Positions 17,248 through 21,709 of a stretch of DNA of 32,863 nucleotides are shown here, in pieces. The stretch is taken from contig JAHKKZ010000008.1 of assembly GCA_029856685.1 (NCBI GenBank), positions 1-32,863 of the forward strand, given 5' to 3'. Positions within the stretch are counted from its first letter, which is position 1. Each line of letters begins with the position of its first letter. The DNA comes from Candidatus Njordarchaeota archaeon. Its GTDB lineage: Archaea > Asgardarchaeota > Njordarchaeia > Njordarchaeales > Panguiarchaeaceae. The translations under genes and the position numbers were made by a program. The notes under the pieces are model-generated. The model worked only from the letters and a program-made list of their open reading frames with translations, did not search any database and was not told the DNA's origin.

Positions 17248-18423
17248 TCATATCCTAGATGCTCCCATGAATATATGCGAAAACTCACTTTGCAAAAAAG
17301 AAACCCATGCTTCATCATTCGTTGTGATGCCTAATACTCTATGCGGATCCACTACAGTCTCAGGAATCGCACTTACTAGTGCTTCTCTCATATCCGCAAC
17401 CACACCGAATACTCTGATATTCCTCATGCTTCGTAGCTGCGTTGTGGGGCCCCGCGATCTAAGTCTCTCTAATATTTGCTGGTGTGTTGGGAAAAGCTCA
17501 GCTACTATCTGGACACGTACCCTTGGTGCAAGGCTTAGTATGATATCCGCAGGAATATAATCAAATGTTGGAGCCACAATAATCACATAGTTCTGAGTCC
17601 TCTTTACTATGTCATATGCCTGTCCCTTAATTTTATCTAAGCCTCTGATGACCTGAATCTCGTATTCACGTCTAACCTCCTTCTCAAAGCCTTTAACGAT
17701 CAAAGCATCTATAGCACCTATACTAAGCTCGAACAGATTTATTATATCCTCCAATTTGCGTTTAGTTTTCTCCTGGAGCGTCTCTCTAATATGATTAATA
17801 AGTTTTTGTGTCGCTAACGTAGTCTGTGTGGAGAGGCGGCGAGTGTTCTCATCCACAGAATTCCTAAAGGTAGAGATTATCGTATTTCTGAGGGCTGCCA
17901 ACCGCTCGGCTGTATTTTTCTTAGATTCCTCCAGTATCTTACTAAAAACATCTTCAAGGATTCTTGTGACGTTGTCAAGTAAAATTTCCGTGAGTATGTT
18001 CTCTAATGCCTCACCAACATTTATAACTGCATTTTCAAAGCTTCTAGATATGTTCTCAGAGAATGCTTTAAGACTCTCTGATAGAACATCTATGCTCTCC
18101 CGAACACTTCTTGTAAGATCACTTTCAAATTCCCTAACCGAGTTTATAAGCTCCTCGATTTGAAGTTTCATAAGAGAATATGGTGGAAGGGCTTCATATA
18201 GTGTTGGTCTACCAGGTATTTCTCTCGCAAGCTTAGCCACTATCAGCTCTTTCACAGCCCTCTCAGCGGTCATATGATCCAGCCCCGTTAGATTTACGAT
18301 CTCTCCTAGAGACCTAGGTCTGAGGCCTATTAGCGCACTATAGACAAGCATAGCATTCTCAGAGATATTCGCATACTTAAGAAGATGCTTAAGAGATTCG
18401 ATATGGCTTGGCAATTTGTGCAC
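17248..18423 (-). CDS. TrmB-like HTH protein with long coiled coil
   Basis: Protein of 391 aa in three parts. Residues about 15-80 form a winged helix like TrmB/HTH regulators (SLGEIVNLTGLDHMTAERAV followed by a wing and LYEALPP). Residues about 85-275 are a long, highly charged coiled coil with heptad-like hydrophobics. Residues about 280-391 form an alpha/beta C-terminal domain (YVIIVAPTFDYIPADII, then RVQIVAELF) resembling the phospholipase-D-like half found in TrmB regulators. The coiled coil is much longer than in ordinary TrmB proteins. The GTG start at 18423 has no Shine-Dalgarno and lies about 29 bp from a TATA-like TTTAAA, so it may be leaderless. It is divergent from the GTPase gene. 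DNA binding is likely; the ligand and target are unknown. Confidence 0.72.
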   Translation of the reverse strand: MHKLPSHIESLKHLLKYANISENAMLVYSALIGLRPRSLGEIVNLTGLDHMTAERAVKELIVAKLAREIPGRPTLYEALPPYSLMKLQIEELINSVREFESDLTRSVRESIDVLSESLKAFSENISRSFENAVINVGEALENILTEILLDNVTRILEDVFSKILEESKKNTAERLAALRNTIISTFRNSVDENTRRLSTQTTLATQKLINHIRETLQEKTKRKLEDIINLFELSIGAIDALIVKGFEKEVRREYEIQVIRGLDKIKGQAYDIVKRTQNYVIIVAPTFDYIPADIILSLAPRVRVQIVAELFPTHQQILERLRSRGPTTQLRSMRNIRVFGVVADMREALVSAIPETVVDPHRVLGITTNDEAWVSFLQSEFSHIFMGASRI

Positions 18424-18465: not shown

Positions 18466-18490
18466 GTAGCGATATAATGAACTATGCTAC
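18466..18490. repeat. Inverted repeat in the divergent promoter
   Basis: GTAGC at 18466-18470 is mirrored by GCTAC at 18486-18490, and the arms extend inwards (ATA/TAT) with one bulged base. It overlaps the predicted start of the GTPase transcript, so it could be an operator, perhaps for the neighbouring HTH protein, or a 5' hairpin. Confidence 0.35.
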
Positions 18491-18515
18491 CTTAAATATT
18501 AAAACTGTGATGTTC

Positions 18516-19613
18516 ATGTCGCTGAGAATAAGAGTAATCATTTATGGCCCTCCAAAGAGTGGTAAATCTCTTTTTTTGAGGAAAATATATGAACTGTACA
18601 GAGATGCTAGTATGCATGAAATAAGACATTTCGGAGGGGGAAGCGCAAGCGGGGTAGACTACTGCACATTTCAAATAGGAGATATCATTTATGAGTTTTA
18701 TGCGCCTCCAGGGGCATCAACATTAAGGGTTTTTAGGGAGAAACTTATAAAAAATGCAGATGCCGTTATTTTCATAATACCTATGGCTAAGGCCCACTTA
18801 GATAGAACAGCATCTTTTCTCCTTGAATTGAAACGTGCCTTATTCACAAAATTTGGTCCAGAGGCAGATAAATTTCCCGTCATATACGCTCCTAACAGCA
18901 CTCGGAGGATATTTAGCATGGACATAGAGTCGAGCGATCTAGTCGATATTCTTAGACTGCCATCGGATTCGATAATACGTCCCCTAGACCTAGACAACGA
19001 GCTTTCAGTTCGCAGGATATTTGGACTCGTAATCCATCTATCGCTTCTATGGCATGTCGATAAAAAACAATATTTTGTTGAATTTGACAGGGAGGTTAAC
19101 ATAACTAAGAATCTGTATTTCAAAGAGGCGGCCATCCCTCCAGAGGAAGCTCTGGCTCAGATCGTAGAACTAATGCGTGCAGAAGCTGGCAAAATAGGGG
19201 GAGAAGCCTTCTCAAAGGAGATGCTACTTGGATTCCCAGATGCGCTCAAAAATAAGTTGCTTAGAAACTATGTAAATGAGGTTGTTCTGGTAGGCTTCGA
19301 TAGGACCATAGGATTTATACCTCTTGGATACGCCTTTGGCCTCGGCAAAGTAATAGACTATATCAAGGATCCCGCTAGGGTGGTTGAGCTTTCAATAATA
19401 GTAAAGCACTCTATGGGTTTCCTTCTCTCGGATGGCTTCACATTTCTAGGCCTCATACCCTTCAAGGATCAAGGGTTCCTAATTCTTGAGACAACATCGT
19501 CGCACATCAAAAAAATGATAAATCTTGTCAAGTCTCTAAAGAAGAAAATGTCTACTCTCACCACCGGAGACACTAAAAGAATAATGGAGATTCTAGATAG
19601 GGTTCTTACATAA
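18516..19613 (+). CDS. P-loop GTPase-like protein (MglA/Arf-like) with C-terminal domain
   Basis: A small-GTPase-like N-terminal domain has the P-loop GPPKSGKS at residues 11-18 and APPGAST in place of the DTPG switch II motif, as in MglA/SR-beta-like proteins. A possible G4 region is VIYAPNSTRR, where the NKxD signature is not recognisable. After about residue 180 comes a domain of about 185 residues with a helical part and a beta-rich part (EVVLVGFDRTIGFIPLGYAFG onwards) that could be roadblock- or longin-like; that is only a guess. The frame opens at ATG 18477, but GTGAT 4 nt before ATG 18516 and the conserved beta strand right after it favour 18516. The gene is divergent from the HTH/coiled-coil gene. 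Role unknown. Confidence 0.7.
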   Translation: MSLRIRVIIYGPPKSGKSLFLRKIYELYRDASMHEIRHFGGGSASGVDYCTFQIGDIIYEFYAPPGASTLRVFREKLIKNADAVIFIIPMAKAHLDRTASFLLELKRALFTKFGPEADKFPVIYAPNSTRRIFSMDIESSDLVDILRLPSDSIIRPLDLDNELSVRRIFGLVIHLSLLWHVDKKQYFVEFDREVNITKNLYFKEAAIPPEEALAQIVELMRAEAGKIGGEAFSKEMLLGFPDALKNKLLRNYVNEVVLVGFDRTIGFIPLGYAFGLGKVIDYIKDPARVVELSIIVKHSMGFLLSDGFTFLGLIPFKDQGFLILETTSSHIKKMINLVKSLKKKMSTLTTGDTKRIMEILDRVLT

Positions 19614-19639: not shown

Positions 19640-20209
19640 CTATCTTTTCTTTAAGAGGGCTTCAATCACCTCGATGATTTCTGCTTCTCTTGTCCTTTCA
19701 AACTCCTCATCGTTCCACCTAACAATCTCGAATCTTACTCCCAGCATCCCAAAGATCTCCTCGAAAATCTCTGAGAAAATGGGAAATATCCTATCATAGT
19801 CAACCATAAGTATCTTGCTTATCCTCTTAGCCATAGCTAGTCCAATCAGTTTAGATATGCTCCTCCTGCTAATTAAGCCGATATCCGTAACAATCTCGAC
19901 AATGTTATATCCCTTCTCCTTAGCATAATTCCTAAGAAACTCTATCTGACGATCTAGTAGTCCTCTCTCAGCAAGCGCCTTACTGATGACCCGGGCATAT
20001 ATAGCAACATCCATAGGGTTCTCCACCATAGACTTTAACCTCATAATCTCGGAGAGAGGATACCTCAATCTCCCAGTAGGAGTCCGAATGTATTTTATTT
20101 TTCCTCTCTTAGCCCAGCGATACAAAGTTACAGGATGAACACCGAGGAGTCTGGCAGCTTTCTTAGCTGGTAAGTAAACTTCTTCTTCCTGAGACCCCAA
20201 AGCCGACAC
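19640..20209 (-). CDS. IS607-type serine recombinase homologue, catalytic serine lost
   Basis: Protein of 189 aa built like the IS607 transposase TnpA: a MerR-type DNA-binding domain (residues about 11-60, with HPVTLYRWAKRGKI and RTPTGRLRYP) followed by a serine-recombinase fold (residues about 66-189). In active relatives the YARVSS block holds the nucleophilic serine. Here it reads YARVIS, with Ile75 at that place and Ser76 beside it. The DR-x-x-R arginine pair is reduced to D139 R140 with Pro143 for the second Arg, and the DxGSG turn is DIGLIS. The frame is intact, and the helices and DNA-binding domain look well kept, so this is probably a non-catalytic DNA-binding protein and not debris. 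No tnpB neighbour or terminal repeats were seen. GTG 20209 lacks a Shine-Dalgarno; a TATA box is at 20255-20262. Confidence 0.8.
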   Translation of the reverse strand: MSALGSQEEEVYLPAKKAARLLGVHPVTLYRWAKRGKIKYIRTPTGRLRYPLSEIMRLKSMVENPMDVAIYARVISKALAERGLLDRQIEFLRNYAKEKGYNIVEIVTDIGLISRRSISKLIGLAMAKRISKILMVDYDRIFPIFSEIFEEIFGMLGVRFEIVRWNDEEFERTREAEIIEVIEALLKKR

Positions 20210-20254
20210 CTAGGAAAAATGTTCCGAATGAGAGCAAGTGATAAACAAAAAACG

Positions 20255-20262
20255 CTTATATC
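20255..20262 (-). promoter_or_regulatory. TATA box for the recombinase-like gene
   Basis: GATATAAG on the minus strand predicts a start near 20232 and a leader of about 23 nt. Its plus-strand reading (CTTATATC) could also serve the TIP49 gene with a 69-nt leader. Confidence 0.4.
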
Positions 20263-20308
20263 CCACTTGCCTCATAGTCATAATGCTATAGTTGGTTCTT
20301 AAATTTCC

Positions 20309-20317
20309 TTAAAATAT
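20309..20317 (+). promoter_or_regulatory. TATA box for the TIP49 gene
   Basis: TTAAAATAT predicts initiation near 20339, leaving a leader of about 15 nt that contains GGTGAT at 20343-20348, 5 nt before ATG 20354. Confidence 0.45.
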
Positions 20318-20353
20318 AGTTGAGGAAAACATTTGGGATGAAGGTGATGCCTA

Positions 20354-21709
20354 ATGGCGTCAACCATAGGAACATTTGCGAGGGTCGGAGCGCATTCTCA
20401 CATAAAGGGTCTCGGTCTTAATGACAAAGGCAAAGCAAAATTTATTGGGGACGGTTTAGTTGGGCAGATAAAAGCTCGGGAAGCGGCGGGACTGATAGTT
20501 CGTCTAATAAAAGAGGGAAAAATGGCAGGTAGAGCGATACTGCTAGCAGGTCCTCCAGGAACTGGGAAAACAGCGATAGCTGTTGGCATCGCAAGAGAAC
20601 TTGGAGAAGATGTACCATTTGTTCAGCTTTCAGGTTCACAAATATACTCAGCAGAGGTTTCCAAAACGGAAGTTCTTATAAGAGCACTTAGAAAAGCTAT
20701 CGGTGTAAGATTCAGGGAATATAGACGAGTCCTTGAGGGTGAGGTCGTCAAGTTCGAACCTCACTTTGCTCCCCACCCATACAATCCTTACCAGCGCATT
20801 GTGCGGGAAGCGAAATTGACTCTGAGAACTAAGAAGGAACGTGTAACACTAACAGTGGGCCCATCAGTAGCCCAAGAGATGATTGCGAAGGGCGTAGAAG
20901 AAGGTATGGTCATAATGATTGATAAAGAAGGAGGTCATGTTAGTGTTCTAGGAATAAGTAAGGAAGCATCAGTTCCAAGATATGATGTTGGGAGAATACC
21001 AGAAGTAGATGTCCCAGATGGTCCAGTGGAAAAAGAAAAAGAATTTGTATACCTAACAACACTAGATGAGCTAGATGAGCTCTTTCATAAGAGGTACTCT
21101 GGGGGTGGGTTCTTTAGCCTGCTATTCGGAGGCCGGGAGGAGAGAAAGGAGATAGATCCCGAAACCCGTATGCAAGTCGATAAATTTGTGAAGGAAGCAG
21201 TTGAATCTGGAAAGGCTGAGATTATACCTGGGGTGCTATTCATAGATGAAATCCACATGCTAGACATTGAGAGTTTTAGCTTCTTAAACAGAGCATTAGA
21301 ATCCGAATTAGCACCAATAGTGATAATGGCGTCGAATAGGGGTTTCACGAAGATTCGTGGAACAGACATAGTTTCGCCACATGGAATGCCCCTGGATATA
21401 CTAGATAGAGTCCTAATAATTCCAACAGAACCCTACAAACCAGAGGAGATAAAGGAGATACTTAAAATAAGAGCACGCGAAGAAAAGATAAATATATCTG
21501 ATGAAGCCCTAGAACTCCTAACTAAGTATGGCGCAGAGATAAGCCTTAGATATGCGATACAGCTGATGGCTCCAGCATGGGAGCGCGCAAAGTTTCATGG
21601 AAGAGATGCCGTAAGCGTTGAGGATGTAGAAGCAGTTAGAGAGCGCTTCGCAAGTATAGAAGAAAGTGTTAGACATCTCAAAGAGTGGGAGGAACGTTTT
21701 CTTAAATAG
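20354..21709 (+). CDS. TIP49/RuvB-like AAA+ ATPase
   Basis: Archaeal homologue of eukaryotic RuvBL1/RuvBL2 (TIP49, Rvb), hexameric AAA+ DNA-dependent ATPases of chromatin-remodelling and assembly complexes. The N-terminus VGAHSHIKGLGL is the TIP49 signature. Walker A is GPPGTGKT at 66-73. The TIP49-specific insertion domain (residues about 120-280, OB-like) lies between Walker A and Walker B LFIDEIHML (D298, E299). Sensor 1 (IVIMASNRG), the arginine-finger region (HGMPLDILDRVLII) and sensor 2 (ISLRYAIQLM) follow. At 451 aa the length matches the family. GGTGAT lies 5 nt before ATG 20354. It shares its upstream region with the recombinase-like gene. Confidence 0.97.
   Translation: MASTIGTFARVGAHSHIKGLGLNDKGKAKFIGDGLVGQIKAREAAGLIVRLIKEGKMAGRAILLAGPPGTGKTAIAVGIARELGEDVPFVQLSGSQIYSAEVSKTEVLIRALRKAIGVRFREYRRVLEGEVVKFEPHFAPHPYNPYQRIVREAKLTLRTKKERVTLTVGPSVAQEMIAKGVEEGMVIMIDKEGGHVSVLGISKEASVPRYDVGRIPEVDVPDGPVEKEKEFVYLTTLDELDELFHKRYSGGGFFSLLFGGREERKEIDPETRMQVDKFVKEAVESGKAEIIPGVLFIDEIHMLDIESFSFLNRALESELAPIVIMASNRGFTKIRGTDIVSPHGMPLDILDRVLIIPTEPYKPEEIKEILKIRAREEKINISDEALELLTKYGAEISLRYAIQLMAPAWERAKFHGRDAVSVEDVEAVRERFASIEESVRHLKEWEERFLK

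Follow-up and report, generated by a model that had tools for sequence, protein, structure and literature searches.

Probable domestication of an IS607-type transposase in Njordarchaeales: an orphan TnpA family with an eroded active site

Why would an archaeon keep an intact transposase gene whose active site has eroded? The question is raised by a short gene in the window, a 32,863-nucleotide stretch of contig JAHKKZ010000008.1 from a Candidatus Njordarchaeota archaeon. The gene lies between a protein of 378 amino acids and a divergently transcribed TIP49 gene. The features that bear on its origin and possible role are as follows.

19640-20209 (-): orphan IS607 TnpA-like gene, catalytically degenerate; open reading frame of 189 aa with Pfam and NCBIfam matches, one of eight Njordarchaeales orthologues
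20036-20179 (-): MerR/BldC-type winged helix-turn-helix (HTH), residues 11-58, the most strongly conserved part; from Pfam, identity comparison and Foldseek matches to BldC-DNA complexes
19649-20011 (-): serine-recombinase catalytic-like domain, residues 67-187, with an eroded active site and an end inside helix E; from Pfam, alignment and AlphaFold/Foldseek
19985-19987 (-): Ile75 (codon ATC) at the nucleophilic serine position; from direct residue count and alignment
19874-19879 (-): G111-L112, a three-residue deletion of the D-x-x-S-G turn; from residue count and alignment
19781-19783 (-): Pro143 (codon CCC) at the second arginine of DRLxR; from residue count and alignment
20210-20353 (no strand): divergent intergenic region with TATA-like boxes at 20256-20261 (-, orphan) and 20309-20317 (+, TIP49), read from the sequence as putative promoters
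20354-21709 (+): TIP49 (RuvB-like AAA+ ATPase), the divergent neighbour; Pfam TIP49 at 457 bits, neighbourhoods compared in eight genomes

Domain architecture and active-site losses

The window gene is an unbroken frame of 189 codons with a GTG start and a TAG stop. Pfam finds HTH_17 (1.8e-10), MerR (1.4e-7) and Resolvase (1.7e-7) in its product. An N-terminal MerR-like HTH is followed by a serine-recombinase fold, the domain order that marks an IS607 TnpA, and the NCBIfam IS607 transposase model NF033518 scores 103.9 bits, slightly below its cut-off of 110. The AlphaFold model (mean pLDDT 88) finds its best structural match in the catalytic domain of ISC1926 TnpA (6dgc, E 2.4e-9), while its N-terminus matches DNA-bound BldC (6ama/6amk) with a target TM of 0.84-0.88. 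The protein therefore shares domain order and fold with the IS607-family TnpAs of ISC1926, IS1535 and ISC1904. It differs from them in lacking the nucleophilic serine, the second DRxxR arginine, the DxGSG turn, the distal part of helix E and an accompanying tnpB, and in being single-copy.

The catalytic serine of IS607 TnpA, in the motif YxRVSS, is required for transposition (PMC6188088). Direct counting of the window protein gives Y71-A72-R73-V74-I75-S76 (YARVIS) and D139-R140-I141-F142-P143 (DRIFP), and D109-I110-G111-L112 stands where canonical proteins have D-x-x-S-G-x. The remaining arginines are R140 (one of DRxxR) and R73 (YxR). The first-pass annotation had reported an intact frame with HTH and recombinase fold retained, together with Ile75, Pro143 and the lost turn, and frame, residue counts, Pfam and AlphaFold/Foldseek all agree with it. 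To these losses we add a C-terminal truncation of helix E. Its distal part ('LYGxRS' and the next ~20 residues) is missing from all eight orphans but from only one of 19 canonical proteins. The window genome also encodes two canonical IS607-type TnpAs, G000:C190 (L044) and G000:C232 (L045), each adjoining a TnpB homologue; the G000:C190 copy reads YARVSS.

Across the family, Y71 and R73 are invariant, and only one of the eight members still has the catalytic serine. The annotation had looked to conservation of Ile75 as a mark of domestication, but Ile is shared by the window protein and its sister (G001) only, with Ala in G006, Pro in G002, G003 and G007, Tyr in G008 and Ser in G005. G005, the one protein with the serine, has lost both DRxxR arginines. 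The full DRxxR pair is found in G006 alone, together with DVGSG, and because of these two proteins we can only infer that every orphan is fully inactive.

One family across Njordarchaeales

The host is an Asgard archaeon of the order Njordarchaeales and not a crenarchaeote, even if the sister genome bears the name 'Crenarchaeota archaeon' in its deposited record and the first reading had proposed crenarchaeal homologues for comparison. The order is represented by ten genomes, which are incomplete MAGs; G000 is the window genome (1.93 Mb) and G001 a sister species of the same genus. When a profile of the orphans was run against 228 Asgard genomes, seven full-length copies scored 264-293 bits and a contig-split copy in G003 scored 180 bits, while any other TnpA reached at most 159 bits. 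This gap in scores yields exactly one copy in each of eight of the ten order genomes, and the same search did not find the family in the remaining ~218 Asgard genomes. The G003 copy consists of two contig-edge fragments that overlap by ~92 bases with one mismatch, a single gene cut by assembly. The orphan is missing from G004 (0.9 Mb) and G009 (12% contamination), as is TIP49. No copy lies beside tnpB, and no TnpB homologue was found in the window or at any orphan locus. Family loci occur in records named JZ-1.bin_83 (same genus), AUK152, and Guaymas B77_G9, B6_G17 and B7_G17 (Candidatus Njordarchaeota).

A maximum-likelihood tree puts the eight orphans together in a clade with 100/100 support, apart from 26 canonical TnpAs; this canonical set includes tnpB-linked TnpAs from the same genomes or order. 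The splits G000+G001 and G002+G007 are supported and recur in the TIP49 tree, and the locus is conserved within sub-clades only. Viral relatives are limited to four distant matches with 28-50% local identity.

Conservation is concentrated in the DNA-binding domain. Mean identity among seven orphans is 72% in the HTH versus 39% in the catalytic domain; canonical TnpAs average 44% and 46%, respectively. Pair by pair, the HTH exceeds the catalytic domain in identity in all 21 orphan comparisons but in just 115 of 276 canonical ones, and although such pairs are not independent, the reversal is large. The orphan proteins of G002 and G007 are 92% identical, with dN ~0.05, dS >1.5 and dN/dS ~0.02-0.04, values that are rough because dS is saturated. 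TIP49 (96%) is the one G002/G007 pair in the comparison with higher identity, and adjacent genes share 38-68%. Between G000 and G001 the orphans share 54% identity, close to the 52% of their neighbour at 18477-19613. Ahead of the G002 and G007 orphans lies an upstream block of 45 bp with 93% identity, but it is no special evidence for an operator because some control promoters are equally conserved.

These results bear out the first-pass proposal of domestication with selective loss of catalysis: eight orthologues form one clade without tnpB, their HTH is preferentially conserved, and dN/dS in the G002/G007 pair falls below 1, as that proposal had anticipated. We regard domestication of IS607 TnpA in Njordarchaeales as well supported.

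A candidate DNA binder without recombination

What such a protein might do is suggested by two known systems. Dimers of IS607 TnpA occupy four phased direct repeats of 9 bp, spread along the DNA and capture a second end, and throughout they have a conformation that cannot carry out the chemistry (PMC6188088). BldC, a MerR-like regulator of Streptomyces, also recognises 9-bp direct repeats, on which its molecules line up head to tail (PMC5859096). The orphan winged HTH closely resembles that of BldC (39% identity, 1.0 A rmsd) and keeps key DNA contacts. Among the base- and phosphate-contact residues of BldC, T27, R30, W31, K33 and R48 are kept, and K26, T29, H46 and R47 are changed. BldC itself has no recombinase-like domain, and the orphan is not a BldC, since it scores 45.4 bits against an NCBIfam cut-off of 77.

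The reading we favour, and consider likely, is that the orphans are domesticated IS607 TnpA proteins, a family specific to this order, and that they have abandoned recombination and act in trans as cooperative DNA binders. It is the most economical account because the family keeps the parts used for DNA binding and loses those used for cleavage. In the Njordarchaeales ancestor, an IS607-type tnpA would have shed both the accompanying tnpB and the distal half of its helix E. The host would have kept this gene in single copy, and its active site would then have decayed differently lineage by lineage. This order of events, with truncation and tnpB loss ancestral and active-site substitutions lineage-specific, is suggested by the distribution of the losses. 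What was left would be a dimerisation domain of recombinase fold that carries a strongly constrained BldC-like winged HTH. If IS607 TnpA and BldC are a guide, DNA binding, cooperativity and bridging may all be properties of the family. Most likely the protein binds short direct repeats cooperatively and works in trans on transcription or DNA architecture, with its own promoter probably among its targets. A scan of the regions upstream of seven orphans for phased direct repeats of 9 bp gave nothing significant, G006 alone being weakly unusual (p ~0.02, several tests). A scan for bacterial sigma-70 promoters and terminators gave matches at or below chance.

A bolder version would have the IS607 filament turned into a genome-wide bridging or nucleoid-type protein that keeps filament formation and end capture, and that organises the chromosome or silences foreign DNA. 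We consider this rather unlikely. Since IS607 TnpA filaments form in the inactive dimer state (PMC6188088), the favoured family of trans-acting binders would amount to a natural separation-of-function case, with filament and bridging retained and cleavage removed. It would also add a candidate chromatin or regulatory factor to Asgard archaea, the archaeal group nearest to eukaryotes, in members whose thermophily is reflected by the reverse-gyrase-like gene of the window.

Transposase domestication is familiar from eukaryotes. Benler and Koonin review many recruitments of mobile elements in prokaryotes and do not mention IS607 (PMC8987985), and the open-licence literature searched held no description of an archaeal order in which a catalytically dead TnpA of the IS607 type has become fixed. 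The closest parallel is found in Saccharomyces kluyveri, where two of the IS607-type recombinase genes have Gly for the catalytic serine and two further copies have another residue for an arginine; their N-terminal DNA-binding domain is highly conserved and dN/dS is ~0.19 (Rolland et al. 2009, PMC2715888). Those genes are recent, species-specific paralogues, intact and dead, that stem from a horizontal transfer, whereas the orphans are a single-copy clade spanning an archaeal order. The stand-alone IS607-like protein MJ0014 of Methanocaldococcus (PDB 3lhk) is likewise archaeal and shares the recombinase-core fold; unlike the orphan, its matched stretch has a YARVSF serine motif and DRLTRFG. 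Two Hadarchaeota/Hadesarchaea genomes encode proteins (L119:286-879 (+) and L120:6067-6654 (+)) in which an IS607-type MerR HTH is fused to a C-terminal region without a recombinase domain, so that the DNA-binding domain of IS607 may have been put to new use there independently.

Gene neighbourhood and alternative roles

The first-pass annotation had suggested that the protein regulates itself and TIP49 from the shared divergent promoter at 20210-20353. The divergent arrangement, with two TATA-like boxes within 144 bp, invites this idea, and both genes occur in the same eight of ten genomes. In the window genus the orphan sits between the 378-aa protein and TIP49, in a block that is collinear from a reverse-gyrase-like to a stomatin-like gene, so adjacency persists in the sister species. 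There, however, the orphan is inverted relative to the window and lies 536 bp from TIP49. In G002, G005 and G007 it adjoins a MoCF/CinA-type gene instead, in both orientations (G005 opposite to G002 and G007), and in G006, G008 and G003 it lies at other locations. The TIP49 genes of G002, G003, G005, G006 and G007 have no orphan neighbour (that of G003 is on a different contig from its orphan), and that of G008, at a contig edge, has none on the visible side. The co-occurrence of the two genes rests on small numbers and incomplete genomes, the two lacking both being the 0.9-Mb and the 12%-contaminated ones. Synteny with TIP49, raised as a possible mark of a domesticated family, thus holds within one genus only. 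Because adjacency is so limited and the orphan lies elsewhere in other genomes, local control of TIP49 cannot be the family's general role, and as a reading of the gene we judge it improbable. Nor can a regulon be read from synteny, because the context of the gene varies across the order.

The orphan could instead restrain active IS607 elements as a trans-dominant repressor, either by covering the ends of the elements or by drawing active TnpA into mixed dimers that are dead. It shares fold and dimer domain with TnpA, and canonical TnpA+TnpB elements are present in G000, G002 and G006. Yet G001, G005, G007 and G008 keep the orphan with no canonical full-length TnpA matched, and the orphan HTH is conserved across the order while canonical HTHs vary, the opposite of what tracking of changing elements would produce. 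These observations make a repressor a less probable role still.

That the protein remains an active recombinase is very improbable. It could act through Ser76, which the first reading had offered as a stand-in nucleophile, or as a specialist in rare inversions, with the flipped gene as its footprint. In matching neighbourhoods the gene alone is flipped, in G000 relative to G001 and likewise in G005 relative to G002/G007 (window 19640-20209 versus L035:8225-8785; L040:8655-9230 versus L039:8289-8867), and the invariance of Y71 and R73 could be taken in the same sense. Ser76, however, is Asp in the sister species (YARIID) and variable elsewhere; the arginine, the turn and the distal helix E are gone; and inverted repeats were sought in the flanks of the window gene and none found.

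Just as hard to credit is a decaying, functionless remnant: the active site is gone and identity between the window protein and its sister is as low as 54%, but the frame is open in eight genomes at one per genome, the closest pair combines 92% identity and very low dN/dS with saturated dS, and genuine TnpA fragments in the same genomes contain stops, unlike the orphan frames.

Several neighbours deserve mention in their own right. The 378-aa protein (18477-19613 (+)) starts with a P-loop-like GPPKSGKS, is ~50% identical to its sister and matched no Pfam or NCBIfam family. Long predicted coiled-coil proteins adjoin the orphan or lie two genes away, such as L040:4979-8653 (+) of G005, with 1224 aa; near the window gene, 17248-18423 (-) encodes a predicted coiled-coil protein of 391 aa with a TrmB domain. 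The reverse-gyrase-like gene is included in the window. Finally, TIP49 adjoins an actin-family gene in G006 (L081:6287-7453 (-)) and in G003 (L082:3753-4880 (+)), the G006 copy matching PF00022 at 380 bits.
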